Shown: positions 22,311-46,710 of the stretch, in pieces | Position numbering within the stretch: position 1 is the stretch's first letter | Layout: every line of letters starts with the position of its first letter | Program-made: the position numbers and the translations under genes | NCBI RefSeq assembly: GCF_010389155.1 | Contig: NC_057768.1 | Coordinates: 10,414,501 to 10,478,500, forward strand | Reading direction: 5' to 3' | Source: Erigeron canadensis | Lineage: Eukaryota > Streptophyta > Magnoliopsida > Asterales > Asteraceae | DNA length: 64,000 nucleotides | Notes under the pieces: model-generated | Databases searched by the model: none | What the model saw: only the letters and a program-made list of their open reading frames with translations | What the model was told of the DNA's origin: nothing

Positions 22311-22763
22311 CTCCAAAAGTATACATGCGTCTTCCAAGTTCCAAAGAATGATTTTGGTTTGAGATCAACTTTACGGATAAAGTTAAAATTTTAATAATTA
22401 GATTAAATCAATAATCAAGACTAAAAGACTATGTTTGATTTTTGATTTATGATATTAATTCGAAGGTCAAAATTTTAAATTTATTTTTAAATTTAAAGGA
22501 TTCTAATCGATATAATTATTGAAAAGACATATTCTACCAAGGTATATATATTAAATTAAATTATACCTTCAGATTTCATTTTTTAAAAATATTTACTTTG
22601 GTTTTTTAAACTAAACATTAACAAATAACATGTCATATTTTTACAAATTGTGTTATTGTGATAGTGGCCTAAGGGATTTTATGATATATACCTTTCATCT
22701 AATATTTCTCTTTCAAAATTTATCAAAAGCATATGATTGTAACAAATTACTCGTAGTAAATTT
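22311..22763. other. AT-rich DNA left of the copia composite
   Basis: No gene or recognisable repeat. It ends in AATTT (22759-22763), one base different from GATTT at 44336-44340, which is the likely target-site duplication of the composite. Confidence 0.5.
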
Positions 22764-23389
22764 TGTTGAGTCTTGGATTCGCTGAAAAGACTTGTTCGCT
22801 GACGTATGTCGTCAGCGAGTCCAGTGACTCTCTTCAGCAGGTTGTATGCTGCCCAAATTGTTGGTCAAGGCGAGAAGATTTCAAACCAGATGAAGATGAG
22901 AGCCACATTGCGGTTCTTCCAACTGTAAAATACCTTATATGGCAAAGATACAAGTTGGGACCAAAACAAGGGTTTTCCCTCTCATACCCGTTTTGGTAAA
23001 GAAGACAAGGGCTCTTGCAAGGAAGTGCAAGGAGCCAATGGGATGTTGACAACCACCATCTATCACCATCAAAGGAAGGCTGTGTTGCCCTAATTCCTCC
23101 TCTATATAAAGCAACACAGCCGCATTGTATCAAGTGTGTTTGTCACCTCTAAAGTGTGTGTCACTTGAAATTGTTTAAGATTTTAGTGTGTCTAGTCTTA
23201 GCAATTACTTTGTTCATTTGTATTCTTGTAAGTCATGTTTGTAATATCGACCATGTATTCATCGTTTAATCAATGATACATATGATTATACTTGCATAGA
23301 TTTATTACATTTGAACTTGTCATTGTTCTTGTTGTTTACTTTCTTGTCTAGCTTAATTATAATATAAGTTGTGCATTCGTTGACTGTTA
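22764..23389 (+). repeat. LTR1 (5' LTR of copia A)
   Basis: 626 bp. It starts TGTTGAGTCTTGG and ends CGTTGACTGTTA, then AA and the primer site TGGTATCAGAGCC at 23392. The TATA box TATATAAA is at 23103-23110. Near the start is a perfect 9-bp inverted repeat TCGCTGACG/CGTCAGCGA (about 22797-22819). The reading frames it contains are not genes. Confidence 0.88.
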
Positions 23390-23391
23390 AA

Positions 23392-23404
23392 TGGTATCAG
23401 AGCC
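23392..23404 (+). promoter_or_regulatory. Primer-binding site (initiator-Met tRNA) of copia A
   Basis: TGGTATCAGAGCC, the standard plant copia site complementary to the 3' end of initiator tRNA-Met, two bases after the LTR. Confidence 0.85.
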
Positions 23405-26768: not shown

Positions 26769-29700
26769 ATGCAGGGATGGCTGGGAAAAGGAGTGTGGTA
26801 TTTGGACAGAGGCTGTTCAAAACACATGACTGGCTCTAAGTCCTTGCTGGATAATTATACAGAGGCACCTGGTCCTACTGTAGTGATCGGTGATAACTCC
26901 ACTGGACAAACTGAAGGGTATGGTCTTCTTTTTAATGGTCTTGTCAAATTTTCCAAAGTTGCCTATGTAAATGGATTAAAACATAATCTCATTAGCATTA
27001 GTCAACTTTGTGATGCTGACTACAAAGTGATTCTTGATAAACATCAAGGCACTGTTGTAAATATAAACAAGGAAGTCGTCTTGGTAGCACCAAGAAAAAG
27101 AGATGTATATCTTGTAGACTTCACTCCTATCAAAACTGACAGTGAGACTTGTTTTTTTGTAAAGTCAGCAGATGAATTAAATTGGTTATGGCACAAGCGT
27201 ATGTCGCATGTGAACTTCAAAACCATTAACTCACTGGCCAAAAAGAACCTTGTTCGTGGCCTTCCTCCTCTCTCTTTTGAAAAAGATAGACTCTGTGGTG
27301 CCTGTGAAAAGGGTAAAAGCCATAGAGCTACTTTCAAAACAAAACAAGCCAACTCTGTCAAGGGTCGTTTTCATCTTCTTCACATTGACCTTTTTGGTCC
27401 AGTGAATGTCCAAAGTCTAAAGGGTAGTAGATACACTTTAGTTATTTTGGATGAATATTCACGATATACTTGGACCATCTTTCTTCATTCCAAGAGTGAT
27501 GCTGTTGATGAGATCATTAAATTCATCAAGAAAATGGAAAATCTCAAGAGCATAAGGGTTAAAGAACTCAGAAGCGACCATGGCACTGAGTTTAGAAACC
27601 ATTCTCTTGAATCCTTTTGTGCTGATCAAGGGATCTCACAAAGTTTCTCTTCAACTAGAACCCCTGAGCAAAATGGTGTTACTGAAAGGAGAAACAAAAC
27701 TCTTATTGAGGTAGCACGAACAATGCTCAGCGAGTCCTCCCTGCCCAGCAGGTTTTGGGCAGAAGCTGTGAGCACTGCTTGCCAAACTCAAAATCGCTGT
27801 CTCATTGTCAAAAGACATGACAAGACAGCCTACGAAATTTTGAGAGGCAAGAAACCTTAAATCAAATACTTTCATGTATTTGGTTGCCCCGTCTTTATTC
27901 TTAATAATAAGGATCATCTTGGAAAATTTGATCCTAAAGCTGATGATGGCTACTTTGTTGGATATTCTGCAATCAGCAAAGCTTTCAGAGTATTTAATAC
28001 TTGTCTTCAAAAGGTGGATGAATCTATTCATGTCACTTTTGATGACAGCTCTTCTGCTCTAAAAGATATCCAATCTTCATCCACTAAAGAAATATTCAAT
28101 GAGCTCACTGATCCTCCTATGGAGGGTATTGACTCATTTGCTGATGCTTCTTGCTCGCTGCCTCTTGATAATCAGCTACTCACTAAGGATAGTTCAGTAG
28201 AACCTGAACTTGAGCAAGTTGTTGCTCACATCTACACGATTGAGCCAGTTGAGCCCATTTTAAGATCAATCCATGTTGCATCAGCCAAACCTAGATCACT
28301 GACTGGTGATTTGCAAGTTGATGACTCTGTTGATGAAGAGTTTCATGATGCTTCAGCTAATACTGAAGACATGGAGTCTGATGATGACCCCATCATCAAT
28401 GATGACTCTACTCAGTCAAATGGCTCCTCTGATCAAAGTCCTATTGAACCAACTCTAACCATTGATCTCTCTTCTTATATTCACCTACTGAACCTATTCC
28501 CTTGTCTTCCGCTACCCTCTACTTGGTTCATCAAGTGTTCCTGCAATTAAATGGACATCGAGTCATACTGCCCATCAAGTAATTGGTGATCTTCAGCAGG
28601 GTATTATGACTCGATCAGCGAACAGAAATTCATGTCTCTATGTTAATTTCTTGTCAATGATCACTCCTAAAAATATTGGAGAGGCAATTGTTGACCTTTC
28701 ATGGGTTGCTGCCATGCAAGAGGAACTTACCCAATTTCAAAGACAACATGTCTAGTTTTTGGTACCTCTTCCTCCTGGTAAAGAACCCATTGGTACAAAA
28801 TGGGTTTATAGGAATAAAATAGACGAAGATGGTGTTGTTATACGTAACAAGGCTAGGCTGGTTGCATAAGGTTACCTTCAAGAAGAAGGTGTTGACTATG
28901 ATGAAACCTTTGCTCCAGTGGCCCGACTAGAAACTATACGCTTATTCTTGGCACATGCTGCTTATTGAAACTTCACAGTATATCAATTGGATGTAAAGAG
29001 TGCCTTCCTAAATGGAAAACTCGAAGAAGAAGTTTATGTGGAGTAGCCACCTGGTTTTGAAGATCCAGCCAAGCCACACCATGTTTATCATCTGTATAAG
29101 GATTTATATGGTCTTAAGCAAGCTCCCAGAACTTGGTATGACACACTCTTGGAGTTCCTTCTCTCCAATGAGTTTCAGTGAGGATCCATTGATAGCACCC
29201 TTATTATTTATAGAAAAGGTGTTCATGTCCTATATGTCCAAATTTATGTAGATGACATTATATATGGATCCTCCAGCAAGAAACTTTGCAAAAAGTTTAG
29301 CTCACTGATGTCATCTCACTTTGAAATGAGTATGATAGGTGAACTAACCTTCTTCCTTAGTTTACAAATTCGTCAACTCTCTGATGGAATTTTTATAAAC
29401 CAAGAAAAATACATTAGGGACATGTTGGCTAAGTTAGATATGACAAATAATCTCCATGCTGACCCAGATGGAAAGCATGTGAACCCCACGCACTATCGTG
29501 GGATGATTGGCTCGCTGATGTATCTCACAGCGAGTCATCCTGATATCATGTTTGCTACTTGTCTTTGTGCAAGATATCAAGCGTCACCCAGGGAGTCTCA
29601 CTTACTAGCTGTTAAGCGAATCTTCAAATATCTCAAAGGGACTTCTTTCTTAGGTCTTTGGTATCCCAAAGATTCAAACTTTGACTTAGTTGCATACTTT

Positions 29701-30162
29701 GACTCTGACTATGCTGGGTGCATGTCAGATAGGAAAAGTACCAGTGGTGGATGTCAACTGTTAGGGGGAAGGCTGATTAGTTGGTCTAGTAAGAAACAAC
29801 ATACAATTTCCATCTCCACTGCTGAAGCAGAGTATGTATCAGCAGCGAGTTGTTGCGCTCAAGGCATCTGGATGAAAAATCAACTCGCTGACTATGACTT
29901 AGATTTCTCTAAGATTCCCATCATGTGTGACAATACAAGTGCTATTTCCATTACACATAATCCTGTTCAGCATTCCAAAACAAAACACATAGATATTAGG
30001 TATCACTTCATTCGTAACCATGTCATGAAGGGGGATGTTGAAATCTACTTCATCCCCACTGACGATCAACTTGCTGACATTTTCACTAAACCTTTAGATG
30101 AAAAAAGATTCTAGGATCTAGTTAGCAGGTTGGGAATGCTGAATGCTGACTCTGCTTCTTAG
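26769..30162 (+). pseudogene. Copia A: pol, broken
   Basis: Protease motif LDRGCSKHMTG at 26802: catalytic DSG has become DRG. HHCC zinc region: HKRMSHVNFKTI to CGACEKGK. Integrase Asp at 27387, Asp at 27576 and Glu at 27684, all present. Reverse transcriptase: YVDDIIYGS at 29245-29256, catalytic pair intact. RNase H: TAEAEYVSAAS near 29820, MCDNTSA near 29925, and HIDIRYHFIRNHV near 29990. In-frame stops include TAA near 27858, TAG near 28753, TAA near 28867, TGA near 28966, TAG near 29043, TGA near 29179 and TAG at 30112, most of them one C-to-T or G-to-A step from the copia B codon. The natural end is TAG at 30160-30162. Confidence 0.92.
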
Positions 30163-30248
30163 CTTACATATCTCCTGTAAGTTAACACTTGACCTTTGTC
30201 AAGATTACCTCAGTGAGTTCAAGTGTGTCTTACTCGCTGAACATAAAA

Positions 30249-30713
30249 GTAATAGGGTGGTGAAAGTCCCTATCTAGTCCAACAGCAAACGGATGTTGGT
30301 AAAGACAAATAAAATCCGTCGATCCCTGATGCTTTGGGAAAAAAGCATAACAAAAGTAATAGGGTGCTGAAAGTCCCTATCTAGTCCAGCAACAAACGGA
30401 TGCTGGTAAAGACATCTAAAATCCTTTGAGCCCTGATGCTTTGGGAAAGAGCATAACAAAAGTAATAGGGTACTGAAAGTCCCTATCTAGTCCAGCAGCA
30501 AACGGCTGTTGGTAAAGACATCTAAAATCCGTTGACCCTTGATGTTTTTGGAAAAAAGCATAACAAACGGATGCTGGTAAAGACATCTAAAATCCGTTGA
30601 TCCCTAATGCTTTGGGAATAATAAAAGTGATAGGGTGCTAAAAGTCCTTATCTAGTCCAACAACAAACGGCTGCTGGTAAAGACATCTAAAATCCGTTGA
30701 TGGCTGACAATTT
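30249..30713 (+). repeat. Tandem structured repeats after pol of copia A
   Basis: Five units of about 110 bp, one partial. Unit 1: hairpin ATAGGG/CCCTAT (30252-30257 with 30268-30273), hairpin CCAACA/TGTTGG (30279-30284 with 30294-30299) with loop GCAAACGGA, loop bases ACGGA pairing with TCCGT (30315-30319) as a pseudoknot, then hairpin ATGCTTT/AAAGCAT (30329-30335 with 30342-30348). Units 2 and 3 start near 30355 and 30460. Unit 4 (near 30563) lacks its first hairpin, and unit 5 starts near 30626. After the last unit a hairpin ACAATTT/AAATTGT closes the array (about 30707-30725). Function unknown. See findings. Confidence 0.9.
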
Positions 30714-30725
30714 GCCAAAAATTGT

Positions 30726-31252
30726 ATAAAGTTAGTCAGCGACCACCTCTCCTTTGTGTTGCTGACTAAAAACTTCGTAACCATTTTTTTTTACAAAACA
30801 GTGACTCTTCAGTGGATACTTCAAATTATCCTGGTGTATTCCACTACGTATTTTTGTTAATATTTTATTATAAATATCTCAAACGGTTATCTCGATTTTC
30901 TCCCAATGGGAAACTTGTACAATGTACGCGTCGTATGTACTCGAGTACAGTTGAAATCGTGGTTCTAGTGGTCACATCATACAACCCACATACGTACATA
31001 TCTACAGTTTTCTTTAAATAAAATAATATTTTATATGCCACGTATGAAAGAGAGTAGGTGTGACGACTCACTTTTTGCAGTTATAGGGCCCATATCATGC
31101 CACACATATACAAATCTCTTCCACTTCTACATCTTTTACGTTCATTTCTTTCTCTTAAACTTTCAAACTCTCTCAAATCTTTTCTATTCTCTCAGAATAT
31201 TCTTCTCAAATTCTTATTCATATCATCCTCTTAATCCTTACTCTCATCTATA
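30726..31252 (+). promoter_or_regulatory. Promoter-like and leader region upstream of ORF3 A
   Basis: Non-coding. It contains GGGCCCA (31086-31092, a site II-like word common in plant promoters), a TATA-like CATATACAAA (31105-31114), then 130 bp of pyrimidine-rich leader up to the ORF3 ATG at 31253. The same arrangement precedes ORF3 in copia B, with a better TATA box. TTTTTGCAG at about 31072-31080 would also serve as a splice acceptor, an alternative way to make ORF3 mRNA. Confidence 0.5.
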
Positions 31253-32932
31253 ATGGCTTCCCCATCTAAAAATGTTCCTGAACAACAACTCTCTGAAAAT
31301 CTCTCCTATCTCACTTCCAAAGTGTATGATAATGAAGGCATTTGTCCTTCAAATCAAGTGTCTTTCCAAGCATCTAAACTGGTTATCAAGGCCAATAATT
31401 ATATTGGATCTACAGAAATCCCGTCTAAAATCAAGGGATACTTTTCCATGTTCGACTTTATAATGGGATGCCCAGCTAGAAAGGCAATTTATAGTGATCC
31501 TAAGGAAATACATGTCCACCTCCAAAGGGAGTTTTGGTGGACATGTGATTACAATGTTGCAAGTAGCACCATCACTGGTACGGTCATGAAAGGGACACGC
31601 ACCATATCTATCTCAGTGGTTCTACTAAGACAAGTTCTTCGTCTTCCCAACCAAACTGAAGAACGATCTTTTGTTGGGCTGGTGGAAACAAGTGTATGGA
31701 AGGAATGGTTGTTGACCATTAGATACGGAACAAATACTGTTCCACCCACACCAGTCCACAGCAACCCCCAAAAGAAGTTCTTGCCTGGAGTATGGAGGTT
31801 GTTGTTCACTCATGTCATTCAGTGCCTTGGAGGAAACAGTGGCTCATTTGATCAAGCCACTGCAGCTCAAATGCAGATTATTTATGCACTGGCAAATGGT
31901 CGAAACATAGACTTTGCCAATGTCATTTTTGAAGACCTGAAGAAAAAAATCACAATAAGGAACAAGTCGAGCTCGATGGCATTTGCCAGATTTCTCTCAC
32001 TGATATTCAAGCATGAGCTCAAGGGAGAATATCTTCCTGAAGGTGCTCACTTTCTCCTCTCTCCAAGGGTTGCGAGCTCTGTATATAAAATTCTTGCTTG
32101 CGACCCTGAGCAATTTCATTCCAAGTATGTTGTCGTCACTCTAGCAATGAAGCAGGTACTATACTCTACTTACACTGATATATATAAACTGAATCCTGCT
32201 GGAGCCGGTATGCTGGTAATCCCCCCAACAACCTCCAAAGCTCCCAAAAACACCAAGAAAACCACTTCTTCTTCCACTTCACTTCCTGCTGCTGTCCCAA
32301 AACAGCAGCAACGAGTACCAAAGGGCCAAACTTCTAAGGTTAGGAAGTCCTTACTGCCCAAGGACAATAGAGAACCAGCCAGCCCATAAGCAGTCTCAAA
32401 AAAGGCTGCTGACGAGAAAAAGGGTAACCGCAAGCAGCCACCTCAATCTTCTGTAGGCGAGGTTGTTGAAGATCAAGGGCCACCCCAGCCCATTAGAGTT
32501 GAGTCAAACCTACAAATACTTCCCTCTTCTTCTTCTCAACCCTCTGAGTCGTTGTCAACAGCCAGATCACAAGTGATGCTAGAGACAACACATTCTACGA
32601 CCGATGATGCATTAGTGACACAACACACTGATGCTGAGGCACCCGGTTCCCCTACCCCTTTACATGTTTCAGTGGAGGAAAGGATGGGTGTTGAATTTGA
32701 GAGTGGTGAGGATGTTGTAGATGGTGGTGAAGGAAATTTCGTTGAGGGTGCTAAGGTTGTCGCACAAGAATACTTGGTTGAAAGTGTTGATGCTGGTGTT
32801 GGTATTGATGAGGAGGAGAGTGATTTGGAGTTGGGAGACTTTATGGCAGCTGAATTCCAGTTGGATTCCTCCAACCAGGCTGAGGAAATGGATGTAAGTG
32901 ATATGGAGGGTGATGTTGAAGAAGAGTGTTGA
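31253..32932 (+). pseudogene. ORF3 of copia A (env-like, 'putative plant transposon protein'), truncated
   Basis: Starts MASPSKNVPEQQLSENLSYL. Residues about 65-290 form a compact domain with GYFSMFDFIMGCPARKAIY, LQREFWWTCDYN and a WRLLFTHVIQCLGG segment. This is the domain often annotated in plants as a transposon or envelope-like protein. I see no signal peptide and no convincing transmembrane helix, so a true envelope role is doubtful. A TAA at 32387-32389 interrupts the frame. It then continues in the same frame as a Ser/Pro linker and a very acidic stretch ending EEEC. The final TGA is supplied by the first bases of LTR2 (TGTTGAG at 32927), so the C-terminal half was cut off by that LTR. 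Function unknown. Confidence 0.8.
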
Positions 32933-33581
32933 GTTATGGATTCGCTGAAGAGACTCAGCGAGTGACTCGTTCAGCGAGCGCCTGCATCTAGAAGCATGAT
33001 CTATCTTCAAGTCTAAAGGATATGTTCGATGACTCACCGTCCAGTATTTGTAAGTCAAATATGAGCGGGAAATTGAAGATAAGAAGGATGGTCCCAAGGA
33101 CACGTGTTGCAAGATCAAGATGAAGCCATGTGACCTTGTACTATGTCTGTGCAATGGAGTCTCTCTTTCATACCGTTTTTGGAAAGAAACAAGATGAAGT
33201 AAAGAGACCTCTGCAGATCTGAATGATCTACCAATAGATAGTTGACAACCTTCATGTGTCAACGTCTACTAGGGTTGTCATGTGATTCCTTATCTGCCTA
33301 TAAAAGGAATCACTTGACCTAGCCACCACCGTTGTTGGTGTGTTCCACATTCTTTACTTTATTCTCTTTGCTTTTTTGTTAAGTTTTTGTGTGTTCAAAA
33401 ACTTAACAAATCTTTTCCTTTTTGTTACTTTTGTTGTAACACAACCATCCATGATTTCATCGTTTAGTTTGAAATACATATAACTGAACTAATTCTTTAC
33501 TTCTCGTCTCTATTCTTGTTATTTCATATTTACATTATAAGTTAGTAAATTGAACACTAGTAGTGCATTCGTGGACCATTA
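32927..33581 (+). repeat. LTR2 (5' LTR of copia B)
   Basis: 655 bp, TGTTGAGTTATGG to GTGGACCATTA, then AG and the primer site TGGTATCAGAGCC at 33584. TATAAAA is at 33300-33306. It matches LTR1 at both tips (TGTTGAG, GATTCGCTGAA, GTGCATTCGT) but is diverged in the middle, so it is a different subfamily. Its first 50 bp hold three copies of TCAGCGA/TCGCTGA. The minus-strand frame across it is not a gene. Confidence 0.87.
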
Positions 33582-33697
33582 AGTGGTATCAGAGCCAGGT
33601 TCCTAAATCATTGGAACGAGATCTGTTTGCCTCTTGTGTTTACATTATTTTCTTTACTGTTTAAATTTCAAAACCTTTTTTTTCTTTTTTCTTAAAG

Positions 33698-36600
33698 ATG
33701 TCTTCTGTACCCACTCTGGTTAACACGCGTGATTTTGGTTACGTCTCTATTCCTCCAAAATTTGAGCGAAAAGACTTTGGCTCATGGAAGGAACGAATGT
33801 TACTACACATAGTGGGTGTAGAACCATATCTTATGACCATCTTAAATGAAGGTCCTTACATACCCATGTATGTCCAAAGGACACCAGGTGCTACACCTGA
33901 TGCTCTTGAAATTGTGACTGATCTGGTAATGCCAGAAGTCCAATGGACTGAAGAAGAGCGAAAGCTCGTCAATCTTGATTCAAGATTGAAAAATATGATC
34001 ATCACCACTCTTCCCACTGAGGTGATGAAACTAGTCATTAAATTCCCCACTTCAAAAGAAGTTTGGGAAAGACTAGTGAGCACTTATGAAGGGTCAGCAG
34101 ACTTGATTAAAACCAAGAAAATTGACCTAAAACGTGCCTACGAAAATTTCATTTCTCTTCCTGATGAAAGTCTCGAGGGCACATATACCCGTTTCAAAGG
34201 GTTGCTCAATGATATGACAAATGTTGGCATTACCCATGACAATTTTGAGGTATACCACAAGTTCATCAACTCTCTTCGTCTTAAATGGCAGAATTTAAGA
34301 CAAATCCTCCGTACCACTAAAAAGATTCAAGAACTGGATCTTGAGGAATTGTTTGGCACTCTTCAATTTGAAGAGAAAACCTTGGCTCAAAATATTAGAG
34401 CCTTTGCAGAATCTAGGAGACATGCTGGCTCCTCTTCCGCAGCTAGCACTTCTGCAAACCCTTTAACTGACCCTCTTGCTCTCATCTCTACTGAGCCCAT
34501 CTACCCCAATGATGGTGCCAACACCTTTACTCTTCCAGCATCCATTCAAGCTCTTGTTGATGAGCTTGATGCTGAAGAGAAACAAGAAATGGTCAGTGAT
34601 TTTATGGAATTTGCCATAATCGCTAGAAAGAAATATTCCAGAAAGTGGAAGAACCGTAAGTCGGTTGCTCCATATAAGCCTCCTGTTGATAAATCACAGG
34701 AAGAATGCTGGAAATGTGGCAGAAAAGGCCATTATCAAAAGGAGTGCAGGGTTTCTATTCCAACCCCTGCTGCTCCTAAAACTAACTCATCTAAATCTGC
34801 TGATGAATATAGGAACAAGTATTATCAGCTCAAAGCCAAATGGCTGAAACTGATGAAGCCAAAACACCAGGCAAAGGTCTGGCTGCTGAAGAGCATGATT
34901 GGGCTGATTCAGATGACTCTGATTACGAGGAGTATGTTGACACCATGTGTCTCATGGCTCTGGCTGATAGTGATGCGCTGACAAAAGACCAAGTCTCAAC
35001 AAGTCAGTGGGTCAACGTCACTGTCAAAAAGGTACATGCTCTTCTCTCATCTGCTGACGAGGACAAGACCAAAATTCTTGAATCCTTGTCATGTGATCTT
35101 CAGTTTGTAGAAACTCTGCGCGCTGAAGCTCACTCAAAACTCTTTTCAGTAAGTTCTGAATTGAGTGAAAAATCTGAAAAACTCAACAGACTAAAGAATG
35201 TTCATGTAGAACTTCAGTCACATGAGTTGCTGACACAAAAGCTTAAGCTTGAGACTGAAAAACTTAAGCTTGAAGTCCTCAATCTCAAGAAGATTATGAC
35301 CTCTTGGTCAAAAGCTTCTAAGTTTCATCATCAATGTCTCAGAGAACAAGTCCCTGCACAAGTTCAGGCAGTGATAGGTGGAGATTTTGAATCTGCTGCC
35401 TGTCTCGCTGACATGTTTAAAGATGATGTGAAACCTGAAATCTCTATCCCACCATCTGGTATTACTTCTCCTGAGGAAATGAAAAAGTGGTATTTCATTA
35501 AAGGAAATGATTATCACACTGAAATGGACGCTGGATCCTCCTCATCTCTCTCCAACGACCCTTCAAATTCCTCTGAAGCTAAAATCGCTAGCTCATCTTC
35601 ATCCTCTAACAATATGTTTTCCCATCTACCTATTGTTGGCATGATGCCACATGAAGGTAAAATTCAATACTCTCCTAATGGAACATTTCATGGAGACATC
35701 TCAAGTGATGGGTACAAATCCATTGCTCCTCAGCAACTCACCTTGAAAACGGCTGAGACTTTCAAAAGAAGTACCGTTGCTATGCCTTATGATTATAGCA
35801 CGCCTCAGCGAGCTGATCATCCTAAACAGCAACCTCAGTCCATCTTGTCTGATCCTTTTCCTTCTAAAGTCTCCAATGCTGAGGAACCTCAGCATGAACG
35901 TCTTATGGTGAGATGTGTAAAGTTTGGAGATGCTAGGTTTCAACATGAAAGCTCATCTCAAGCTAAACCTGTTGTCCATCAGCAGGCTACTCAGTCATCC
36001 CCACCTCGATCAATTCTGAGACACTTAACTCCTCAAAGGGGTAAGATGCCTCAGTCTGTTAATAGACCAACCACTTCTCAGCGAGGGTGCATTCCTCAAC
36101 AACAAATGAGGAATGTAACTCCTCAGCGAGGAAACATTCCTCAGCAACAAATGAGGAGTGTAACTCCTCAGCGAGGAAATGTTCCTCAGCAACAAATGAA
36201 GAGTGTGACTCCCCAAAGAGGACACTTGCCACATCATCAAGTGAGATCCTCCACTCCTAACAGAGGACAACTGTCCTCTCAGCAGGTACAATCTTCTGTT
36301 CCTAGTGGAGAATACCTCCCTCACATGCAAGGGAGGTCTGTAACTCCAAATCGTCAACCTAGGTCCACCACTCCCAGCAGAGTGCATCAACCTAGGACTT
36401 CCTCCTCTCAATCAAATTTCAAACAAGCCTGGAGTGTTTTCAGAGGATCACAAGTTGCCTCCTCTTCCACTCCTCGTCTAGATGACCCCACTGGACAATC
36501 TCTCTTGGGTCCTCCTCCACCCTCAAGGAATTCTTGCAAGCAAAAATCAAAGCCTAAGTCCAAAGCAAAGACCAAGGCTTCAACCTCTTCAAACCCTAAA

Positions 36601-37236
36601 ATTGTTGAACTTGCTCAACAAGTCAATAACTTGTCTTCTCAACTCAAGGAATTCCTTCTTAGCAATCAACAAAACAACTCCTCAAATAGAAAATGCTATC
36701 TTTGCGGCATTGGAGGACATGTTGCAACTGACTGCAGTGGCTCAAGAGATGCTCCTGAAGTGGTTGTGCAAACAAGTTCTTCCATTTCAGCATGTGCCCC
36801 ATCATCTGACCCTGTCAGTGAAAACATCTCATCTACTAGGATCAGCGAGAACCCTCCTCATGAACCTATCACCATTGACACTGGCTTTGTCACTGGCCCA
36901 TATGGCACTCATCAAACTGACTTAGCTGATTATGTTGCCGCTCAACGTATTGAGATTCCTCATTCTCAGAGTGTTATCTCCAATTCTTGGGGACAACCAG
37001 CTATGCTGGTTGAATTTAGTGCTCCCAATATTGTCAGCAACTTTGTTGTTCTTCAAGAAAATGGGAGTAACACAATGCCCACTGATGAGAATGACAGAAC
37101 TCATATGTTTGCTGACTTGGGAAACTATCCCACTCTCGAGGAAGCTCTTTCAACTGAGCCAACCACTACCTCTGATGCTCCCATCTTTAATCCTACTGAC
37201 ATGCCTGTCAGCGAATTTGAAAGTGGACCAATCTAA
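33698..37236 (+). pseudogene. Copia B: gag, one frameshift from intact
   Basis: About 1180 codons. The start MSSVPTLVNTRDFGY is at 33698. The UBN2 gag core is near 34130 (YENFISLPDESLEGTYTRF). First CCHC knuckle CWKCGRKGHYQKEC lies at about 34708-34749, intact. A frameshift near 34838 leads to the second half, starting at 34840 and running to TAA 37234-37236. That half has a coiled coil (about 35150-35310), a repeated TPQRGN/PQQQM region (36060-36380) and a second knuckle CYLCGIGGHVATDC near 36692-36733. Two far-apart knuckles and such length are unusual for copia gag. The protein should form the particle and bind element RNA. Confidence 0.88.
36061..36385 (+). repeat. In-frame repeat in gag B: TPQRGN-PQQQM units
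   Basis: About six units of roughly 45 bp encode RSVTPQRGNIPQQQM and variants. Each has a Thr-Pro and an Arg two residues later, a pattern like proline-directed kinase sites. The units are basic and Gln-rich and sit before the second zinc knuckle. Copia A has a decayed version near 25800-25990. Confidence 0.85.
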
Positions 37237-37253
37237 AACCTTCTATTTTATCC

Positions 37254-40200
37254 ATGCAGGGTTCGCTGGGAAAAGGAGTGTGGTATTTGGACAGTGGATG
37301 TTCAAAACACATGATTGGCTCAAAGACCTTGTTGGATAACTACGTAGAGGTTGCTGGCCCAACTGTAGTGTTTGGTGATAATTCCACCGGACAAACTGAA
37401 GGTTATGGTCTCCTCTCAAATGGATTAATCAAATTCTCCAAAGTTGCCTATGTAAATGGATTAAAACACAATGTTATAAGTCAACTTTGTGATGCTGACT
37501 ACAAAGTTATTCTTGATAAACATCAAGGGACGGTTGTAAACATTAACAAGTCGTATTGGTAGCTCCAAGAAAACGAGATGTATATCTTGTTGACTTCACT
37601 CCTATCAAAACTGATAGCGAGACTTGTTTCTTTGCCAAGTCAGCAGCTGAACTAAATTGGTTATGGCACAAGCATATGTCGCATGTGAACTTCAAGACCA
37701 TAGAGCTACCTTTAAGAAAAACTTGCTAAGAAAAACTAAGCAAACATATCCTTTGAAAAAGACAGGCTTTGCAGCGCCTGTGAGAAAGGTAAAGCCTATA
37801 GAGCTACCTTTAAAACTAAGCAAGCCAACTCTGTCAAAGGATGTTTTCATCTTCTTCACATGGACCTCTTTGGTCCTGTGAATGTCCAAAGTCTAAGAGG
37901 TAGCAAATACACCTTAGTTATCGTGGATGAATATTCACGATACACTTGGACTATCTTCCTCCACTCCAAGAGTGATGCTGCTGATGAGATTATCAATTTT
38001 ATTAAGAAAATGGAAAATCTCAATGGCATAAGGGTTAAAGAACTCAGAAGCGATCATGGTACTGAGTTCAGAAACCACACTCTTAAATCTTTTTGTGATG
38101 ATCAAGGGATCTCACAAAAGTTCTCATCTGTTAGAACTCCTGAGCAAAATGGTGTCGTTGAAAGAAGAAATAGAACACTTATCGAGGCAGCGAGAACAAT
38201 CCTCAGTGAGTCCTCTCTTCCTAACAAATTTTGGGCTGAAACTGTCAACACAGCTTGTCACACCCAGAATCGCTGTCTAATTGTCAAGAGACATGATAAG
38301 ACAGCATATGAAATCTTAAGAGGTAAGAAACCTCAAATTAAATACTTTCATGTGTTTGGATGCCCTGTATTCATTCTGAACAATAGGGATCACCGAGGCA
38401 AATTTGATCCCAAAGCTAATGATGGTTACTTTGTAGGATATTCATCTATCAGTAAGGCATTTAGAGTATTTAATATTCGTCTACAAAAAGTAGATGAATC
38501 CATTCATGTCACTTTTGATGAAAGCTCATCTGCTTTAAAGGACATTCAATCCTCATCTTATGAAGAAGTATTTAGTGAATTCACTAATTCTTCCAATGAG
38601 GAAGCTGACTCATTTTCTGATGCACCTTGTACCTTACCTGAATGTCATCAACAGACATCTCAGGATACATCAGTTAGTACTGATGAGGAACAAGTTATTG
38701 CTCACATTTATTCTATTGAGCCAATTGAGCCTATTTTGAGATCAATCCAGGCTGCTTCAGCCAACACTAAATCGTTGACTAAGGATGTACATGCTGATGA
38801 TCTCGCTGAGGATGAGTTTCATGATGCCTTAGCAAGTGCTGAGGATATGGAGTCTGCTGATGACTCCAACATCAATAATAACTCAGCTCAGTCAAATGAC
38901 TCAACTGATCATCCTGTTGCTGAACCCACTGTCACCATTGACTTCTCATGATACAATCCTCTCCCTGCTGTCCCCATCACTCAATCTTCCGCTGACACTC
39001 ATCTAGGTTCTTCAAGTGCTCCTGCACTTAGATGGACAGCAAGTCACCCCACTCACCAAGTCATTGGTGATCGTCAGCAGGGTATAGTCACTCGATCAGC
39101 GACAAGAAACACATGTCTTTATGTAAACTTCTTGTCAATAATCACTCCCAAAAATATTGGTGAGGCAATGGTTGATCCATCTTGGGTTGCTGCCATGCAA
39201 GAGGAATTAACCCAATTTCAACGACAACATGTCTGGTTTTTGGTTCCTTTACCACCTGGTAAGGAACCTATTGGTACCAAATGGGTGTATAGAAACAAAA
39301 TGGATGAGGATGGTGTTGTTATACGTAATAAGGCTAGGCTAGTTGCACAAGGTTACCTTCAAGAAGAAGGAGTCGACTTCGATGAAACCTTTGCTCCAGT
39401 GGCCAGATTAGAAGCTATACATTTATTCTTGGCACATGCTGCTTATCGAGACTTCAAAGTCTATCAAATGGATGTCAAGAGTGCCTTCCTGAATGGAAAA
39501 CTCGATGAAGAAGTCTATGTCGAACAGCCACCTGGTTTTGAAAATCCAGCCAAGCCACATCATATCTATCGTCTTTATATGGCTTTATATGGTCTTAAGC
39601 AAGCTCCTAGAGCTTGGTACGACACTCTTTCTGAATTTCTCCTCTCTAACAACTTTTAGCGAGGATCTATTGATAGCACTCTTTTCATATTTCGAAAAGG
39701 CGCTCATATACTGTATGTCCAAATTTATGTTCATGACATTATCTTTGGATCCTCAAGCACTAAACTATGCAAAAAGTTTAGCTCCCTTATGTCATCTCAT
39801 TTTGAAATGAGTATGATGGGAGAATTAACCTTCTTTCTTGGTTTGCAAATACGTCAGCTAGGTGATGGTATTTTTATAAATCAAGAAAAGTATATTGGAG
39901 ACATGCTGGCTAAGTTTGACATATCTGATATCTCTCCCAAGCCAACTCCCATGTCTCCTCCCAATAATCTCCATGTTGATCCTGACGGTAAGCATGTGAA
40001 CCCCACTCACTATCGTGGGATGATTGGCTCGCTAATGTATCTCACAGCGAGTTGTCCTGATATCATGTTTGCCACTTGCTTATGTGCAAGATATCAAGCA
40101 TTTCCAAGAGAATCTCATCTTCTCGCTGTTAAGCGAATCTTCAAATATCTGAAAGGTACTATGACCTTAGGTCTTTGGTATCCCAAGGAATCCAATTTTG

Positions 40201-40678
40201 ATCTTGTTGCTTACTCCGATTCTGACTATGCTGGTTGCATGTAGATCTAAAGAGTACTAGTGGAGGATGTCAACTGTTGGGGGGGAAGGTTAACTAGTTG
40301 GTCTAGTAAGAAACAGCATACAGTGTCCATCTCCACTACTGAAGCATAATATGTATCGACAGCGAGTTGTTGTACACAAGTCCTTTGGATGAAACACCAA
40401 CTCGCTGACTATGACTTAGACTACTCTAAGGTCCCCATTATGTGTGACAATACAAGTGCAATTGCCATCACACATAATCCCGTTCAACATTCCAAGACCA
40501 AACACATAGACATTAGATATCATTTTATTCGCGACCATGTCATGAAAGGGGATGTTGAAAGTTATTTCATTCCCATTGATGATCAACTCGCTGACATTTT
40601 CACATAACCTTTAGATGAAAAGAGATTTAAAGATCTTGTCAGTAGGTTGGGAATGTTAAATGGTGACTCAGCTACTTA
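37254..40678 (+). pseudogene. Copia B: pol, broken
   Basis: Protease LDSGCSKHMIG near 37290, intact. A 4-bp deletion near 37550 breaks the frame in the GAG-pre-integrase region, and at 37690-37830 a CATAGAGCTACCTTTAA-like segment is repeated, a local rearrangement. Integrase: MDLFGPVNVQS at 37860, RSDHGTEF near 38050, PEQNGVVERRN near 38140, all three acidic residues present. Stop TGA at 38949. Reverse transcriptase from 39132, TAG at 39657-39659. The catalytic YVDD is YVHD at 39726-39737, which should kill polymerase activity. RNase H breaks after 40244. The natural end is TAA near 40676. Confidence 0.9.
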
Positions 40679-40743
40679 ACTTACATATCATTTGTGAGCT
40701 AAGATTTGGTCAGCAAGTTTAAGTATGTCTTGCTTGCTAAACA

Positions 40744-41060
40744 AAATAAAGGCAATGGAAAGCCAAAAGTTTCCATCTAGTCCAATAGCAAACGGTTATT
40801 GGTAAAGACTTCTAAAATTCGTTAATCCCTGTTGCTTTGGGAAAAAGGAAAATAAAGGCAGTGGAAAGCCAAAAGTTTCCATCTAGTCCAATAGCAAACG
40901 GTTATTGGTAAAGACTTCTAAAATCCGTTAATCCTTGTTGCTTTAGGAAAAAGCAAAATAAAAGCAATGAAGAGCTAAAAGTCTTCATCTAGTCCATCAG
41001 CAAACGGCTAATGGTAAGGACTTATAAAATCCGTTGATGGCTGACAATTTGCCAGAAATT
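40744..41060 (+). repeat. Tandem structured repeats after pol of copia B
   Basis: Three units of about 110 bp with the same fold as in copia A but different stem bases. Hairpin 1: ATGGAAA/TTTCCAT (40755-40761 with 40770-40776), GTGGAAA/TTTCCAT (40861-40867 with 40876-40882), ATGAAGA/TCTTCAT (40967-40973 with 40982-40988). Hairpin 2: CCAATA/TATTGG (40782-40787 with 40797-40802; 40888-40893 with 40903-40908). Its constant loop GCAAACGG pairs with CCGTT (40925-40929 and 41031-41035). Hairpin 3 in unit 2: TTGCTT/AAGCAA (40938-40943 with 40951-40956). A closing hairpin ACAATT/AATTGT ends the array. Confidence 0.9.
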
Positions 41061-41463
41061 GTATCTCAGCGACCATATGTGTGTCATATGCTCGCTGACA
41101 TGTAATAGAAAACATGTCCTTATCAATGTGTTTGCTAAGGCATGATCTATAAAAATAATATTTGTTGGATTTTAACATATTAAATAAAACATAGGATTAG
41201 ATATGAAACTAACTATTTCGGATGTAACTATGTTGGTAACGTGGCATTCTTTTGAGCCATATGATACATAATTTACAACAAAAAGGTTACCCACTTGTTT
41301 TCTTGAGTACGTCACTTGTCCACTTGAGACTGTTTCTGTGCATCTGACGGTCTGACCCTGTCTGACGCATACGACGCACACCCAAGTATTTGCAAAATAT
41401 TTTTTTTAAAAACGTTACTCACAAAGTTCCTTTTATTTTTTTATATATACATAAATATCTTTG

Positions 41464-41533: not shown

Positions 41534-41724
41534 GACCAATCATGTTCCATCACCATACCCTATATATACAAACTCATACTCATATTTCCACTTTCACACT
41601 TTCTTTCAACTATTCATCTTCTCTCAAATCTCTTAAAATCTCTCAAACTGTTTATCTCCTCTAAATCTTATTATCTACTTCCTTTGATCTTTACATCTTC
41701 TAATCTCCTTACCAAACATCAAAA
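41534..41724 (+). promoter_or_regulatory. Promoter-like block and leader of ORF3 B
   Basis: GACCAATCA (CCAAT-type, 41534-41542), TATATATA at 41561-41568, then about 155 bp of CT-rich leader with no ATG until ORF3 starts at 41725. The layout is that of an ordinary plant RNA polymerase II promoter and 5' UTR, and it sits far from either LTR. Confidence 0.6.
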
Positions 41725-43462
41725 ATGGCATCATCATCTGAAACTCCATCCGCTTCCTTTGATCATACTCATAGTTAAGAAACTTGTTGATCTTGTCTCC
41801 CCCCTGATATCTCAAGTTGAAAGCAACACCAAGGCTGTAAATGCCTTGGAAACACAATTGGCCAGTCTTCCTCCTCCTCAAGCTTCTGTCACTGAGGAAG
41901 ATCGTAAGCGCCAACAGGGTCTGGAGAAGGATGTTGGGGAAATTAAGTTACTGCTCTCCAAGCTTATTGAACATCAAGCAGCACCCACTGCTACCGTGGA
42001 GGTTGTTATTAATGATACAACCTCCAAGGGGGAGAAAGTTGATGTTGCTGTGATGGAACTTGTCAACGAAGCTGTTAACAAAGTGGTGAGCGATATTTAT
42101 GAAGCTTTTGCTGACAAGGTAACAAACGAAGATGACACTGCTGCAGCCACTAATACACAAAACGATGAACTGGCAATAGTGGCTGTCAGCGAGAAGAATG
42201 TATATGCTCCCCCTTCTGGTGTTGAGGGGGAGACAAAAATAGATACTGAAAATCCCCCTGCTGGTGCTGAGGGGGATATTGAAGAAGTAAGTGCTAAGAG
42301 GGAGCAACAATTGATAATTGTTGATGCTCCCCAGATTGAAAGAAAATGAAGAGGAGATGAGTCCTCATGCAGTCAGAGCAGCATGGGAAACTGGGTTTGC
42401 ACAAGAAATGTCCACTGACAGATCCACGGAAGTGTTCAACATTTTTCATCCTCGCTTCCTTGGAAATGCGCTGGTCACTCAAATGACCGAGGCACGTCGA
42501 AAGTAGCTGACTGAAGCTGGCTTCTTCAAGAGACCTTCTTCCTCGTCTCTCTCTGCTGAAAACATTTCCATCATTTCCCCAGCAGGCAATCAACATCAGG
42601 TGATTGACATTCTTTCCTTAACTGCTGAGGGAAAGACCCAAGATGAGGCGCTAGAGGAGCTAGATAGAATCAAGGCCAACTAGGAAAATGAAAAGAAAAA
42701 CCTGGAGTATAATAGACAGCTGGCTCTCTTGGAGAAGGATGAGATGAATGGAGAATAGAGAATGCTGTTGACGACTGGTGGGCCTGAAGCTCTCTACAGG
42801 CAGAAGCGGGCTGATGTAGAGCAGCTAGTGAAGGAAAAGAGAGAAAAATTTGAAGTTGAGAAGGCCAAGTAGTTGAAGATCATGGAAGATAGGAAGAGGC
42901 CTGAAACAATAATAGTCGTTGAAGCACATAAAGCTGCCATGGGAAAAAAAACAAATCTGAAGTTCCTAAGGGAAGGACAAAGTGCTCCAACCAGAATTGA
43001 AGATGTGAAGCTGACCAACTTGGGGGCTTCAGAGTGGTTTGAAATTTATATGCTAATTAAAGATAAAAAGGCTGCCACCTATGAACAACTTCAGGGGATG
43101 CTGAATAGCTATTTTGCAAAGGCACTGAGGTTTGAAACCAAGTTCAAGGCAGACCTACCCATGCTGAGGGCAGTGTCTTTGGCTCTCCAGCAACTGTTTC
43201 TTCTTCAGCGGGCAAGCGTACTCAAAAAAGAAAGCAAACCATGCAACCCTTGCCTGCTGACCTTCCTCCTATCTCAAGCGATGCTGGATTAAATCTGAGG
43301 CTTCCTCCCAAGTGTTTCTTTGAAGAAGGGAGAATACTTGAAAATCCTGCTGGCATATTCTTCCAAAATTTCCGAAATGATCAACTCTTCTTTAGGCTGG
43401 CGAAGATTGAACAAGCATCTACTAGTTTTCTGATCAGCATCAGAAGAAGATTCTCTAAGTGA
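41725..43462 (+). pseudogene. ORF3 hybrid: copia B N-terminus joined to a C-terminal coiled-coil half
   Basis: ATG at 41725 gives MASSSETPSASFDHTHS and a stop at 41776. In another frame the sequence then continues KKLVDLVSPLISQVESNTKA, heptad-rich ALETQLASL, acidic repeats around GVEGE and GAEGD (to TGA 42347-42349), then Lys/Glu-rich helical segments in several frames (42318-42506, 42873-43292, 43241-43462). The domain of about 230 residues seen in ORF3 A (MFDFIMGCPARKA) is missing here. The frame switch fits a deletion junction near 41760-41780. The C-terminal half may come from copia A's ORF3, whose own end was lost at 32926. Function unknown. Confidence 0.65.
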
Positions 43463-43701
43463 TTAGTGCTAGATCAGTCATCAACAAGATTGATGAAAAG
43501 TTGATGAAAAGTACTGAGAATTGCCAAGCAAGAGGACGTTTGGGAGATTGAAGTTGCAAATCTTTAGATGTCTTACTTTGTAAAAGCTTTATGCTTCAGC
43601 TTGTAACTTGCTTTGATGATATAAAAGACATCTTTCCTTCATACTACATTCTTTTCTAAGTCTTATTTACTCAGCAAGTCTCTTCAGCGAATAGGGGAGA
43701 T

Positions 43702-44335
43702 TGTTTAGTCTTGGATTCGTTGACAAGACTTGCTCGCCGACGTGTGTCGTCAGCGAGTGTTCAGCGAGTCTAGTGACTCTCTTAAACGGGTTGTATGCTG
43801 CCCAAATTGTTGGTCAAGGCGAGAAGATTTCAAACCAGATGAAGACGAGAGTCACATGGTGGTTCTTCCAACTGTAAAATACCTTATATGGCAAAGATAC
43901 AAGTTGGACCAAAACAAGGGTTTTCTCTCTCATACCCGTTTTGGTAAAGAAGACAAGGGCTCTTGCAAGGAAGTACAAGGAGTCAATGGGACGTCGACAA
44001 CCACCATCTATCACCATCAAAGGAAGGTTGTGTTGCCCTAATTCCTCCTCTATATAAAGCAACACAGCCTCATTGTATCAAGTGTTTGTCACCTCTAAAG
44101 TGTGTGTCACTTGAAATTGTTTAAGATTTTAGTGTGTCTAGTCTTAGCAATTACTTTGTTTATTTGTATTCTTGTAAGTCAAGTTTGTAATATCGACCAT
44201 GTATTCATCGTTTAATCAATGATACATATGATTATACTTGCATAGATTTATTACATTTGAACTTGTCATCGTTCTTGTTGTTTACCTTTTTGTCTAGCTT
44301 AATTATAACATAAGTTGTGCATTCGTGGACTGTTA
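43702..44335 (+). repeat. LTR4 (3' LTR of the composite)
   Basis: 634 bp, TGTTTAGTCTTGG to GTGGACTGTTA, preceded by the purine tract AATAGGGGAGA (43690-43700). It is a close match to LTR1 along its length, with TATATAAA at about 44051-44058. It is followed by GATTT, the likely target duplication. Confidence 0.87.
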
Positions 44336-46710
44336 GATTTCAATACGTTATTCTGAAACGAATGTCATCACGTTCAAGAGCTAGATAAGTAGCCAACAAC
44401 GAGAAAATTTGTATCTAAAATGTTACGGAGTATATGATATGTCAAAATGAATGTGATCAATGTTTTCGAAATTATGAGTAAATGGGTCAAGCATCTATAA
44501 TATTTGCTTGAATTTTGATACGCTATTGATCCGAAATAAATGTGATCACAATGAAGAGCTAAATAAGTAGTCGGCAACCAAAAATTTGTATCTAAAATGT
44601 TGTATGATATGTTAAAATGAATGTGATTAGTAAATCAAAATACACAAGTTTTTAATACTTTATGTAAGTGGGTCAAGCATTTATGTGGGTTTGATATTCA
44701 AATGAATAATGTCATAAAATAAACGACTAAAGTGCAAATAAATGGCAACAAAAATAGCAATATTTAATTGGGAAAACAACTTTATTATCCATCTTTTTAA
44801 AAAATATATTAACGTATCCAAGTTTTTTTTGGATATTCATAAAATACCTAACAAAATTGCTTTTTTGGATATTCATAAAATACACCTAACAAAATTGCAA
44901 TAAGAGTCCCAAAACCGCAATGAGATTCTCAAAATCGCTTAATAAATTAACAAAAGTGCAATGCGATTTAACATAACTGCATAAAAATTTAATAAAACTT
45001 GTAAAGGTTTTGTAAAATTTGAGGATTTCTATGCGATTGTAAATTCACTATGCGATTGATGGTACATAATGTGGGGGGTTGGCGATTCTTGTTGGAACTG
45101 GATAGGAAGGTAAGTCTGGTAGATTATGGTTTGGGTGGAAGAAAACGCTATTTAGAGCTTATTTTCACTATTTAATTTATGTATTGTGCTAAGTTTAAAT
45201 GAATTGATAAGTTTAAATGAATTGATATAGTAACATGGAATGTAAGATCAAATAGTAATAGTTCGCTACTATTCGACTATTGACCATAAAAAGTTCATGT
45301 TTTCTATAATCACACGTTATTTTTCCCTTGTCAATCATAATTTCTTCGAAAAAGTTTCTCCTCCACCTCGATATCTTTCGATAAAAGTTTCATGATGAAG
45401 ACTTCGTAGAGTCAAAAGAGCCTCGAAGGGGGGATGTCGCGGAGATAAGATGTAAACAGCCATATCTCTACTCGAGAGTATAGCAACTCTTATAATATCT
45501 ATATCTATATTATCTATAAAAGAAATATATAATTTCATTAACTACACATTAGTTTACCTATAATAACTATATTATTTAATAAGTACAAGTTGCGGATTAT
45601 AGTTTTGGGGGAAGAAAATACGATTTAGGGTTAAAAAAGGGGTAAATACCGCTTTGGGTGTGGGCGGTTTAAGATTTGTAAAGATCGTGATGCGATTGTA
45701 TAAAACTATTACGATTTTATGTTAATATTGTGATTTTAACAAATTCCATACCATTTTTCAATATTCTATATGTGATTTTCATCATCCTTATATGATTTTA
45801 ATAATCTTATTACATTTTAACAACCTCATTGCGATTTTCTAATATGATTACGATTTTGGTGGGTATTTTGAAAAAAGCAAAAATTCAGGTAAATTAATAT
45901 ATTTTTTAAAAAATTTTGGGCATTGAGCTTATTTTCTCTATTTAATTTATGTAATGTGTTCGGTTTTAATGAATTGGTACAACAACTAAGCATGTAGGAT
46001 CGAATAGTTGGCTAGTATGCGACCATTGACAAACAAAATTCCATGTTTTTCATAACTAACGTTCTTTTTCCTTGTCAATCATAACTTTCCCCAAATCGTT
46101 TCCCCTTCACCTCAAGATCTTTCCATAAAATTTTCATGATAAAGACTTCACAGAGCCAAAGGAGCCTTTCTTACAATATCTATATTATTTATAACAAAAA
46201 ATAATAATTTTCATTACTTCATCTACTTCAGCTATGATATCTATATTATTTAAACTTACACGTTAGGTTTCCTAGAATATCGATATTATCTATATTTTTT
46301 AACAAAAAGAAAGATTATTTCAATAATTTCTTCTATATAACTGTTTAAATTTTGAGATTGTGTTTAGTCTTAGTAGCAATGATTTTCATTTTATTGTACA
46401 TATTTGGCAAAGTGTAGCTGGTAGTTTGTGGCTGTAACTTTTAGTTATAGCTCTTAAGAAATACTGTTAATTTTTTAGAGGTGTTTGGTAACTTTAAATA
46501 AAATTTCAAAAGATACTTTTATAAATTTTAAAAACTAAAAGCTTCATCCAACTTAAAACTCTTGAAGTAGCGTTTCATTTTAAAGTTTTTTCTTTCAAAT
46601 AAAATGTAAATCTAATTACATCCATTTTTTAATAAGAGCTAATAACTCAGAACTAAAAGCTAAATCTCTCTAAAAGCTTTTGAAAATTTCTTACCAAACA
46701 TGCTCATTTC
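44336..46710. other. AT-rich intergenic DNA with diverged tandem duplications
   Basis: No gene seen. Two old direct duplications are visible: about 44341-44465 resembles 44517-44640 (shared AAGAGCTA.ATAAGTAG, AATTTGTATCTAAAATGTT and ATATGT.AAAATGAATGTGAT), and about 45152-45427 resembles 45917-46170 (shared GAGCTTATTTTC, CTATTTAATTTATGTA, CCTTGTCAATCATAA and TTTCATGAT.AAGACTTC). TGCGATT-like words are frequent. Confidence 0.5.

Follow-up and report, generated by a model that had tools for sequence, protein, structure and literature searches.

Tandem arrays of putative three-pseudoknot RNA units behind pol in copia-type retrotransposons of Erigeron canadensis

Introduction

Two copia-type long terminal repeat (LTR) retrotransposons, here designated A and B, adjoin each other on the plus strand of contig NC_057768.1 of Erigeron canadensis (assembly GCF_010389155.1). 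They occupy 22.8-44.3 kb of the window, the 64,000-nucleotide stretch analysed here (positions 10,414,501 to 10,478,500), and all coordinates below are those of the window. Behind the pol gene of each element lies a tandem array of units about 106 nt long, and the RNA of each full unit is predicted to be capable of forming three consecutive H-type pseudoknots (PK1, PK2 and PK3). Stem letters have changed with pairing kept, to an extent beyond chance. Read in the sense direction, each array is a series of internal units that ends, with few exceptions, in a single terminal unit, and its place behind pol hardly varies. It seems to be the folded RNA as such that counts for the element. A preliminary description of the window had reported tandem hairpin-pseudoknot repeats; the PK1 and PK3 pseudoknots, the distinct last unit type and 918 genome-wide matches to a core pattern go beyond it.

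In many copies, a compact RNA array has a conserved TATA box and leader for a neighbour, which bears on the expression of the third gene in those plant LTR retrotransposons that have one, and on how they sort their RNA for translation versus packaging. Should the fold work, the units would be an RNA family that Rfam lacks, and studies of RNA stability and recognition would gain a naturally occurring collection of tandem pseudoknots. Among the matches listed in a search of the open-licence literature, no title or abstract opening dealt with tandem pseudoknots in plant LTR retrotransposons; subscription papers and bioRxiv lay mostly outside its range, making this weak evidence of absence.

Unit inventory and predicted fold

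Tandem Repeats Finder and alignment place array A at 30245..30732 (four full units and one truncated, about 106 nt each) and array B at 40743..41065 (three full units of 106 nt), both on the plus strand. The tandem units reported earlier behind pol, five in A and three in B, are therefore upheld in number, with their extents redrawn and the fourth unit of A recognised as truncated. Unit spacing is 107, 106, 65 and 100 in the five copies of A, and 106 and 106 in the three of B. A4 has neither PK1, nor the 5' arm of hairpin 2, nor the 3' arm of hairpin 3, and the two arrays together hold seven full units.

All stems listed for hairpins 1 to 3 in the preliminary description are present in the units. 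Its fold of three hairpins and a pseudoknot per full unit also stands, except that hairpins 1 and 3 are themselves candidate pseudoknots: in each, an upstream triplet is complementary to three letters of the loop, giving the H-type arrangements PK1 and PK3. In PK1, the loop letters directly after the 5' arm are the partners of the triplet that precedes the stem: AGT/ACT in A3, AGT/GCT in A2 and A5, AGC/GCT in B3, and GGC/GCC in B1 and B2. The PK3 triplets are CCC/GGG in A1, A2, A4 and B1, CCT/AGG in B2, and GGC/GCC in A5 and B3. PK2 consists of hairpin 2, the pairing of its loop AACGG with a downstream CCGTT (the knot) and a possible closing GTC/GAC. Without guidance, RNAalifold recovers the stems of PK1 and PK2 and the triplet helix of PK3.

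Unit A1 illustrates the fold on the plus strand, as do all units below. Its PK1 (30248..30273) has the triplet helix S1 AGT/GGT, with one mismatch, and the main stem S2 ATAGGG/CCCTAT. PK2 (30277..30320, 44 nt) combines the closing GTC/GAC, the stem CAACA/TGTTG and the loop ACGGA with a downstream TCCGT, the knot and closing stem being without covariation. PK3 (30324..30348) pairs CCC/GGG in S1 and ATGCTTT/AAAGCAT in S2. The three domains follow at 30355..30454 in A2 and at 30461..30561 in A3, where S1 of PK3 has two of its three pairs. The truncated A4 (30560..30620) retains the second half of PK2 and S1 of PK3. A5 (30626..30727) is of the terminal type, with GGC/GCC and ACAATTT/AAATTGT in PK3. 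In array B, PK1 to PK3 span 40751..40849 in B1, 40857..40955 in B2 and 40963..41064 in B3, again of the terminal type. The terminal units A5 and B3 are identical in columns 82-99 (18/18), as against a pol identity between A and B of 70-87% per 300-bp window.

The hairpin 2 loop CAAACGG, described earlier as constant, is indeed invariant in 8/8 rows (the seven full units and A4). The earlier pairing of AACGG or ACGGA with CCGTT or TCCGT survives as conserved complementarity but not as covariation; one pair is broken in A2 and another in A1, and B1 has one G-U pair. Among the seven full units, PK2 is the most constant domain (34/47 columns invariant, compared with 9/26 in PK1 and 6/18 in PK3).

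Compensated change in the units of the window

The structure scored comprised the earlier hairpins, the two triplet helices and the closing GTC/GAC, with hairpin 3 represented by three pairs only. In the alignment of the window's units, 94.7% of 208 cells are paired, and 13 of 29 pairs are altered on both sides. Shuffles scored as high in 0/500 cases for four of five measures; for the fifth, further pair types, they did so in 316/500. Sliding the structure by one to three columns left 31-41% of cells paired.

This structure was picked after the sequences had been seen; a scan of all column pairs is independent of that choice. With at most one unpaired cell allowed, compensated two-sided change occurs in 11/11 structure pairs variable on both sides, compared with 70/783 other pairs. 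Three-pair stacks with at least two compensated pairs number eight, seven of them in the structure and the eighth a one-step shift of the PK1 stem. In a tree null, the observed substitutions were re-placed at random on the tree in two modes, with 4,000 simulations each. The observed 11/26 two-sided compensated pairs compare with a mean of 1.0 and a maximum of 5 in 4,000 in both modes, bearing out the earlier statement that stems change but stay paired. For the two triplet helices that would form the pseudoknots, 5/6 pairs are compensated, and the null maximum is 3.

Copies across the genome

The core pattern AGTCCNNNNNCAAACGGNNNNNGGTAA has 918 exact matches in the 426 Mb genome (436 on the plus and 482 on the minus strand), and its reversed control has none. 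A-type and B-type sets were assembled from the best 30 of 40 scored loci each, out of 459 and 463 first-look candidates, and the resulting 60 array-similarity loci include the window's own two. A third set of 30 pattern-derived loci represents only 14 different arrays, two of them already among the 60. The 90 loci yielded 300 parsed units, none containing N and 213 of them distinct, some pattern-derived loci sharing one array. A-type arrays hold three parsed units in 9 loci, four in 20 and five in 1 (n=30); B-type arrays hold two in 2 loci, three in 24, four in 3 and five in 1 (n=30). Of 198 distinct 91-column units, 8 were out of register and were removed before dereplication to 81 representatives.

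In these representatives, 1887/2025 cells are paired, and 9/25 pairs have at least two well-populated Watson-Crick types that differ on both sides; nulls in two modes gave maxima of 6 and 4 and reached the observed count in 0/1,000 each. Arms were also swapped between terminal and internal units, with one random draw each. S1 of PK3 is fully paired with its own arm in 195/210 distinct units and with the swapped arm in 1/210, and PK3 stems with seven pairs fall from 180/210 to 7/210. For S1 of PK1, full pairing drops from 185/190 to 66/190 when only units carrying one of the three most frequent 5' triplets are counted; with all units included, 186/210 are fully paired with their own arm. Six distinct 91-column units with a PK1 shifted by one nucleotide (7/210) were scored as unpaired, though GGC/GCC pairs in their own register. 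The triplet helix appears to vary independently of the main stem, because further combinations occur, namely AGC/GCT with ATAGAGA/TCTCTAT and GGC/GCC with ATGAAGA/TCTTCAT.

Additional unit subtypes with mixed PK1 types were seen at L062, L080 and L090. A PK1 stem of the B kind is carried by the first unit in 14/30 A-type arrays (first units of L002-L031), hinting at exchange between the families or at an old first-unit type. Neither the core pattern nor the pol protein had a match in IMG/VR. In prokaryote genomes, the core pattern matched once (L001, Thalassobacillus), at a site that the covariance model did not recognise, and this match was taken as chance.

Position, polarity and strand

The C-terminus of pol lies upstream of the array on the same strand in 60/60 array-similarity loci, at 107-183 nt from the first unit in 57 and at 69, 237 and 243 nt in the remaining three. 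For the pattern-derived loci, pol is upstream in 27/30, or 12/14 arrays, and was not found in three loci (two arrays). The terminal unit type comes last in 56/60 arrays and in 0/145 other places; the corresponding counts for pattern-derived loci are 29/30 and 0/65.

On the sense strand, loop L1 would span 6-7 bp with 1-2 nt and loop L3 would span 3 bp with about 2-5 nt, which suits H-type geometry. On the antisense strand the loop roles swap, and 1-2 nt must span the shallow groove of 6-7 bp. A pseudoknot descriptor found 9 start positions in A and 6 in B on the sense strand, and 1 and 4 on the antisense strand; as distinct places, these are 7 and 5 versus 1 and 3. Shuffles gave means of 0.7 (A) and 0.6 (B), with a maximum of 5 in 300. 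By plain folding energy, minus-strand RNA is about as good, and this is a weak spot of the strand assignment: minimum free energy z scores are -2.94 sense and -2.80 antisense for A, and -3.27 and -3.01 for B.

A neutral origin deserves mention here. Tandem repeats are common in the linkers of plant LTR elements, and the units might be one such repeat that spread with the element, its pairing inherited rather than selected. Consistent with this, G-U and A-C cells are near even in the 81 representatives (99 vs 80; 7 vs 3 in the window), counts that are uninformative on strand, and the per-pair covariation test described below placed one structure pair among ten significant ones. Such a repeat is already contradicted, however, by the tree nulls on pairing (0/4,000 in two modes and 0/1,000 in two modes), by the loss of pairing upon arm swaps and by the terminal unit fixed at the array end, and we regard a neutral origin as most improbable. 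The selected structured RNA proposed in the preliminary description, outside known families, is supported by the shuffles, tree nulls and arm swaps, and by Rfam matches at chance level only.

Linker, TATA box and ORF3

Downstream of the array, a linker leads to a third open reading frame (ORF3). In element A, ORF3 (31253..32389, plus strand) encodes 378 aa with a weak, sub-cut-off match to PF20167. It is preceded on the same strand by a TATA-like site and a CT-rich leader (31091..31252); the TATA is degenerate in this copy, and no ATG follows it. In B, TATATATA and the CT-rich leader occupy 41541..41724 on the plus strand, likewise with no ATG after the TATA box. From array to ORF3, the A and B linkers are identical at 235/503 positions, no better than five shuffles (189-249 of 441-517). 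The exception is about 95 bp of the CT-rich leader, which aligns between A and B (E 4e-8) and is matched across families at E 1e-4 in 11/30 B loci and 10/30 A loci.

TATA[AT]A occupies one and the same position ahead of ORF3 in 52/55 alignable loci of both families, a count that omits the 5/60 loci that did not align and has no chance control; the window's A copy is among the three without it. The stronger point is that both families keep the TATA box while most of the linker has diverged. Between the array and the ORF3 start, there are 6 ATGs in A and 11 in B, none from the TATA-like site onward, although the ATG-free leader is weak evidence, because composition alone leaves it ATG-free in about three quarters of shuffles. 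Together, these features suggest that ORF3 has its own internal promoter downstream of the array. The TATA box described here agrees with the internal promoter that Bousios et al. (2010) preferred for env, although they could not identify one conclusively. If ORF3 is transcribed from this site, only full-length RNA would carry the array; an ORF3 mRNA without the array could not be served by it directly in translation. The role in ORF3 translation entertained in the preliminary description has accordingly become less likely, given the intervening ATGs and the TATA box.

The array might alternatively act as DNA, enhancing the ORF3 promoter from upstream in the manner of the Sirevirus motifs before env. 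It does lie upstream of the TATA box at a near-fixed place, and Bousios et al. (2010) report repeated palindromes before env, the RM boxes. The array shares with these the location of repeats between pol and the third gene and the presence of CGG and CCG. RM boxes are palindromes of 10-20 bp, with a CGG-CCG core in 12/13 of those listed (Bousios et al., 2010), whereas the array units are about 106 nt long and their CGG and CCG are the two strands of a knot, separated by about 23 nt, which is not the RM-box form. Moreover, an RNA pseudoknot would naturally show compensated changes in arms interleaved as S1a-S2a-S1b-S2b, and a factor-binding site would not. A DNA-level role is very unlikely.

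A protein search with ORF3 returned no match at E 0.001 among 2,189 candidates. Stop-codon readthrough into ORF3 was ruled out, its ATG lying more than 1 kb past the pol stop. The absence of a convincing tblastn match had led to the view that the ORF3s of A and B are unrelated; this was corrected by comparing ORF3 starts across loci. The ORF3 start of A is matched by blastn in 8/30 B loci, and that of the window's B copy in 23/30 B loci, in four other B loci over 32-33 nt only. The B ORF3 of the window (41725-42349) looks atypical. The signal AATAAA is no more frequent near the arrays than AT-rich DNA would give by estimate, and it was not used.

Possible functions and related RNAs

We tentatively propose that the array is a multivalent protein-binding scaffold that would mark full-length RNA as genomic RNA, a possibility that we hold without strong conviction. 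The arrays would work at the RNA level, as part of the full-length transcript. As structural modules, PK1 and PK3 would tolerate changes in letters but not loss of pairing, and PK2 is proposed as the recognised part because it is the most constant domain. A first guess for the partner would be the element's own Gag, with a role in packaging; a second would be a host factor involved in the export, translation or stability of the RNA. The retroviral export elements, such as the constitutive transport element of Mason-Pfizer monkey virus and the direct repeats of Rous sarcoma virus, are likewise structured or repeated cis-acting retroelement RNAs. The Rous sarcoma virus direct repeats, given as 115 nt in PMC3856414, are close to the units of about 106 nt; in size and in kind, no other retroelement precedent comes nearer, sequence and fold having been compared only through Rfam.

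Several observations weigh against this scaffold. Its binding partner is a guess, and the proposal draws on sequence throughout; arrays of two to five units would fit a mechanical or translational role as well. Neither the PK2 knot (AACGG/CCGTT) nor the closing GTC/GAC has covariation in its favour, both being nearly invariant. The extra constancy of PK2 sits in paired positions (19/26 invariant, vs 5/20 in PK1 and 3/13 in PK3), whereas the unpaired positions show much the same constancy in each domain (15/21, 4/6 and 3/5 for PK2, PK1 and PK3 in the seven full units). Because the surplus lies in paired positions, PK2 is weaker as a recognised part, and our estimate for the scaffold was lowered slightly. 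Its constancy in the genome set is also partly imposed by the parser, whose anchors miss units with more substitutions, and many genomic copies are probably decaying, with constancy owed in part to descent. The same caution extends to the internal promoter, a prediction from motifs, since close copies share the TATA by descent.

The covariation and strand evidence also has its weak points. A per-pair G-test with average product correction and a tree null, run on the 81 representatives, gave ten significant column pairs, one of them in the structure. The others link PK3 positions that shift jointly between internal and terminal units; because PK3 changes as a block in this way, the per-pair test is not pair-specific. 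Given this outcome, copies from one genome support complementarity as a whole and not each pair, so that the covariation put forward in the preliminary description withstands phylogenetic nulls in the tests of complementarity but not pair by pair. The descriptor count of A was reached in 13/2,541 plus-strand and 49 minus-strand sub-windows of the stretch, and that of B in 59/2,548 and 85. Descriptor density alone proves little, because other sub-windows reach it, above all on the minus strand.

Tandem pseudoknots could instead serve as a mechanical roadblock that stalls a 5'-3' exonuclease (plant XRN4) or a ribosome and leaves stable 3' fragments, a reading that we consider rather unlikely. 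The exonuclease-resistant RNAs (xrRNAs) of plant viruses (dianthovirus/polerovirus, RF04222 and kin) are the closest to PK2. They share its topology, in which the loop of P1-P2 pairs with a downstream strand, and its span is 44 nt here and 43-57 nt among those covered in PMC6299227. Many of the xrRNAs tabulated there sit in intergenic regions, comparable with the place of the array, and multiple xrRNAs within one RNA are described in PMC13161572, which recalls the two to five parsed units per array. In contrast to these RNAs, PK2 has a short, invariant closing stem of only 3 bp, a longer spacer (about 9 nt between closing stem and knot strand) and flanking pseudoknots. Its stem covaries, and its knot and closing stem hardly vary, which weighs in neither direction. 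RF04222, entered as the potato leafroll virus xrRNA family in the account of Rfam 15 (PMC11701678), was not matched: a search of 30100-31300 at E <=10 gave two matches far below gathering (E 2.6 and 5.3), neither of them RF04222, and one of 22700-44400 at E <=1 gave two microRNA families below gathering. Further, an uncapped RNA left by trimming would present 6 or 11 ATGs ahead of ORF3. That an array of up to about fifteen pseudoknots and a terminal unit blocks exonuclease or ribosome, and would be the first retrotransposon roadblock, is in our judgement unlikely.

The closest likeness in architecture is the upstream pseudoknot domain of tobacco mosaic virus (TMV), from which a third reading follows, namely that the array enhances gag-pol translation and stability. 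As presented in PMC4683447 and PMC5382211, the TMV domain consists of three consecutive pseudoknots 3' of the coding region, binds eEF1A and can be replaced in its effect by a poly(A) tail. The units here would likewise be three consecutive pseudoknots in sense RNA of a plant host behind a coding sequence, pol; PK1 and PK3 are backed by compensated change, and the PK2 knot by conserved complementarity only. The TMV domain, however, is single and precedes a tRNA-like 3' end, whereas the units recur two to five times in the pol-ORF3 interval of an LTR retrotransposon and are followed by linker, TATA box and ORF3 rather than by the RNA end. ARAGORN found no tRNA gene in 22700-44400, viral tRNA-like folds being outside its model, and array A had no Rfam match to such a domain. 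The full-length RNA of LTR elements should end in a polyadenylated LTR, and an enhancer would be less needed for that reason. We view this reading, too, with considerable doubt. The array cannot be assigned to the TMV-domain or xrRNA family: its Rfam matches lie far below gathering and belong to neither, and the defining features fail or are only putative.

Host elements in the window

Pfam searches found gag and integrase domains in the elements, with reverse transcriptase represented by a weak, sub-cut-off match only. The 3' part of pol in A spans 29308..30114 on the plus strand; the end of reverse transcriptase within it was placed by that weak match, and RNase H by position. Third codon positions in the 3' part of pol differ between A and B at 31% (84/268). 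The Sirevirus-type primer-binding site TATCAGAGC is present at 23395 (A) and 33587 (B). It follows a 5' LTR junction that reads TTA/AATGG in A and TTA/AGTGG in B, the Sirevirus form being CA/ATTGG or AGTGG. The Sirevirus polypurine tract is AGGGGGAG followed by AT/TG at the 3' LTR, with further copies in the linker; here, TAGGGGAG AT/TG occurs at 43692, and two exact octamers lie at 42027 and 42225. The additional ORF 3' of pol in A (31253-32389) is a feature of Sireviruses.

The outer LTRs (22763-23392 and 43701-44338) are 93% identical across about 640 bp, and a different-looking LTR, at about 32930-33580, separates the two internal domains. With the outer LTRs alike and the intervening one reading differently, two elements may have been combined in this pair. 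The heptamer TCAGCGA occurs in 30 copies on both strands between 22779 and 43767 (against 3.5 expected and at most 10 in 100 shuffles). Every copy lies within the two elements, in LTRs, in coding parts and near both arrays. The heptamer may be a repeated motif of this lineage's own. A 45-bp tandem repeat of 3.1 copies (36073-36212), within a 798-aa ORF of element B, also includes TCAGCGA.

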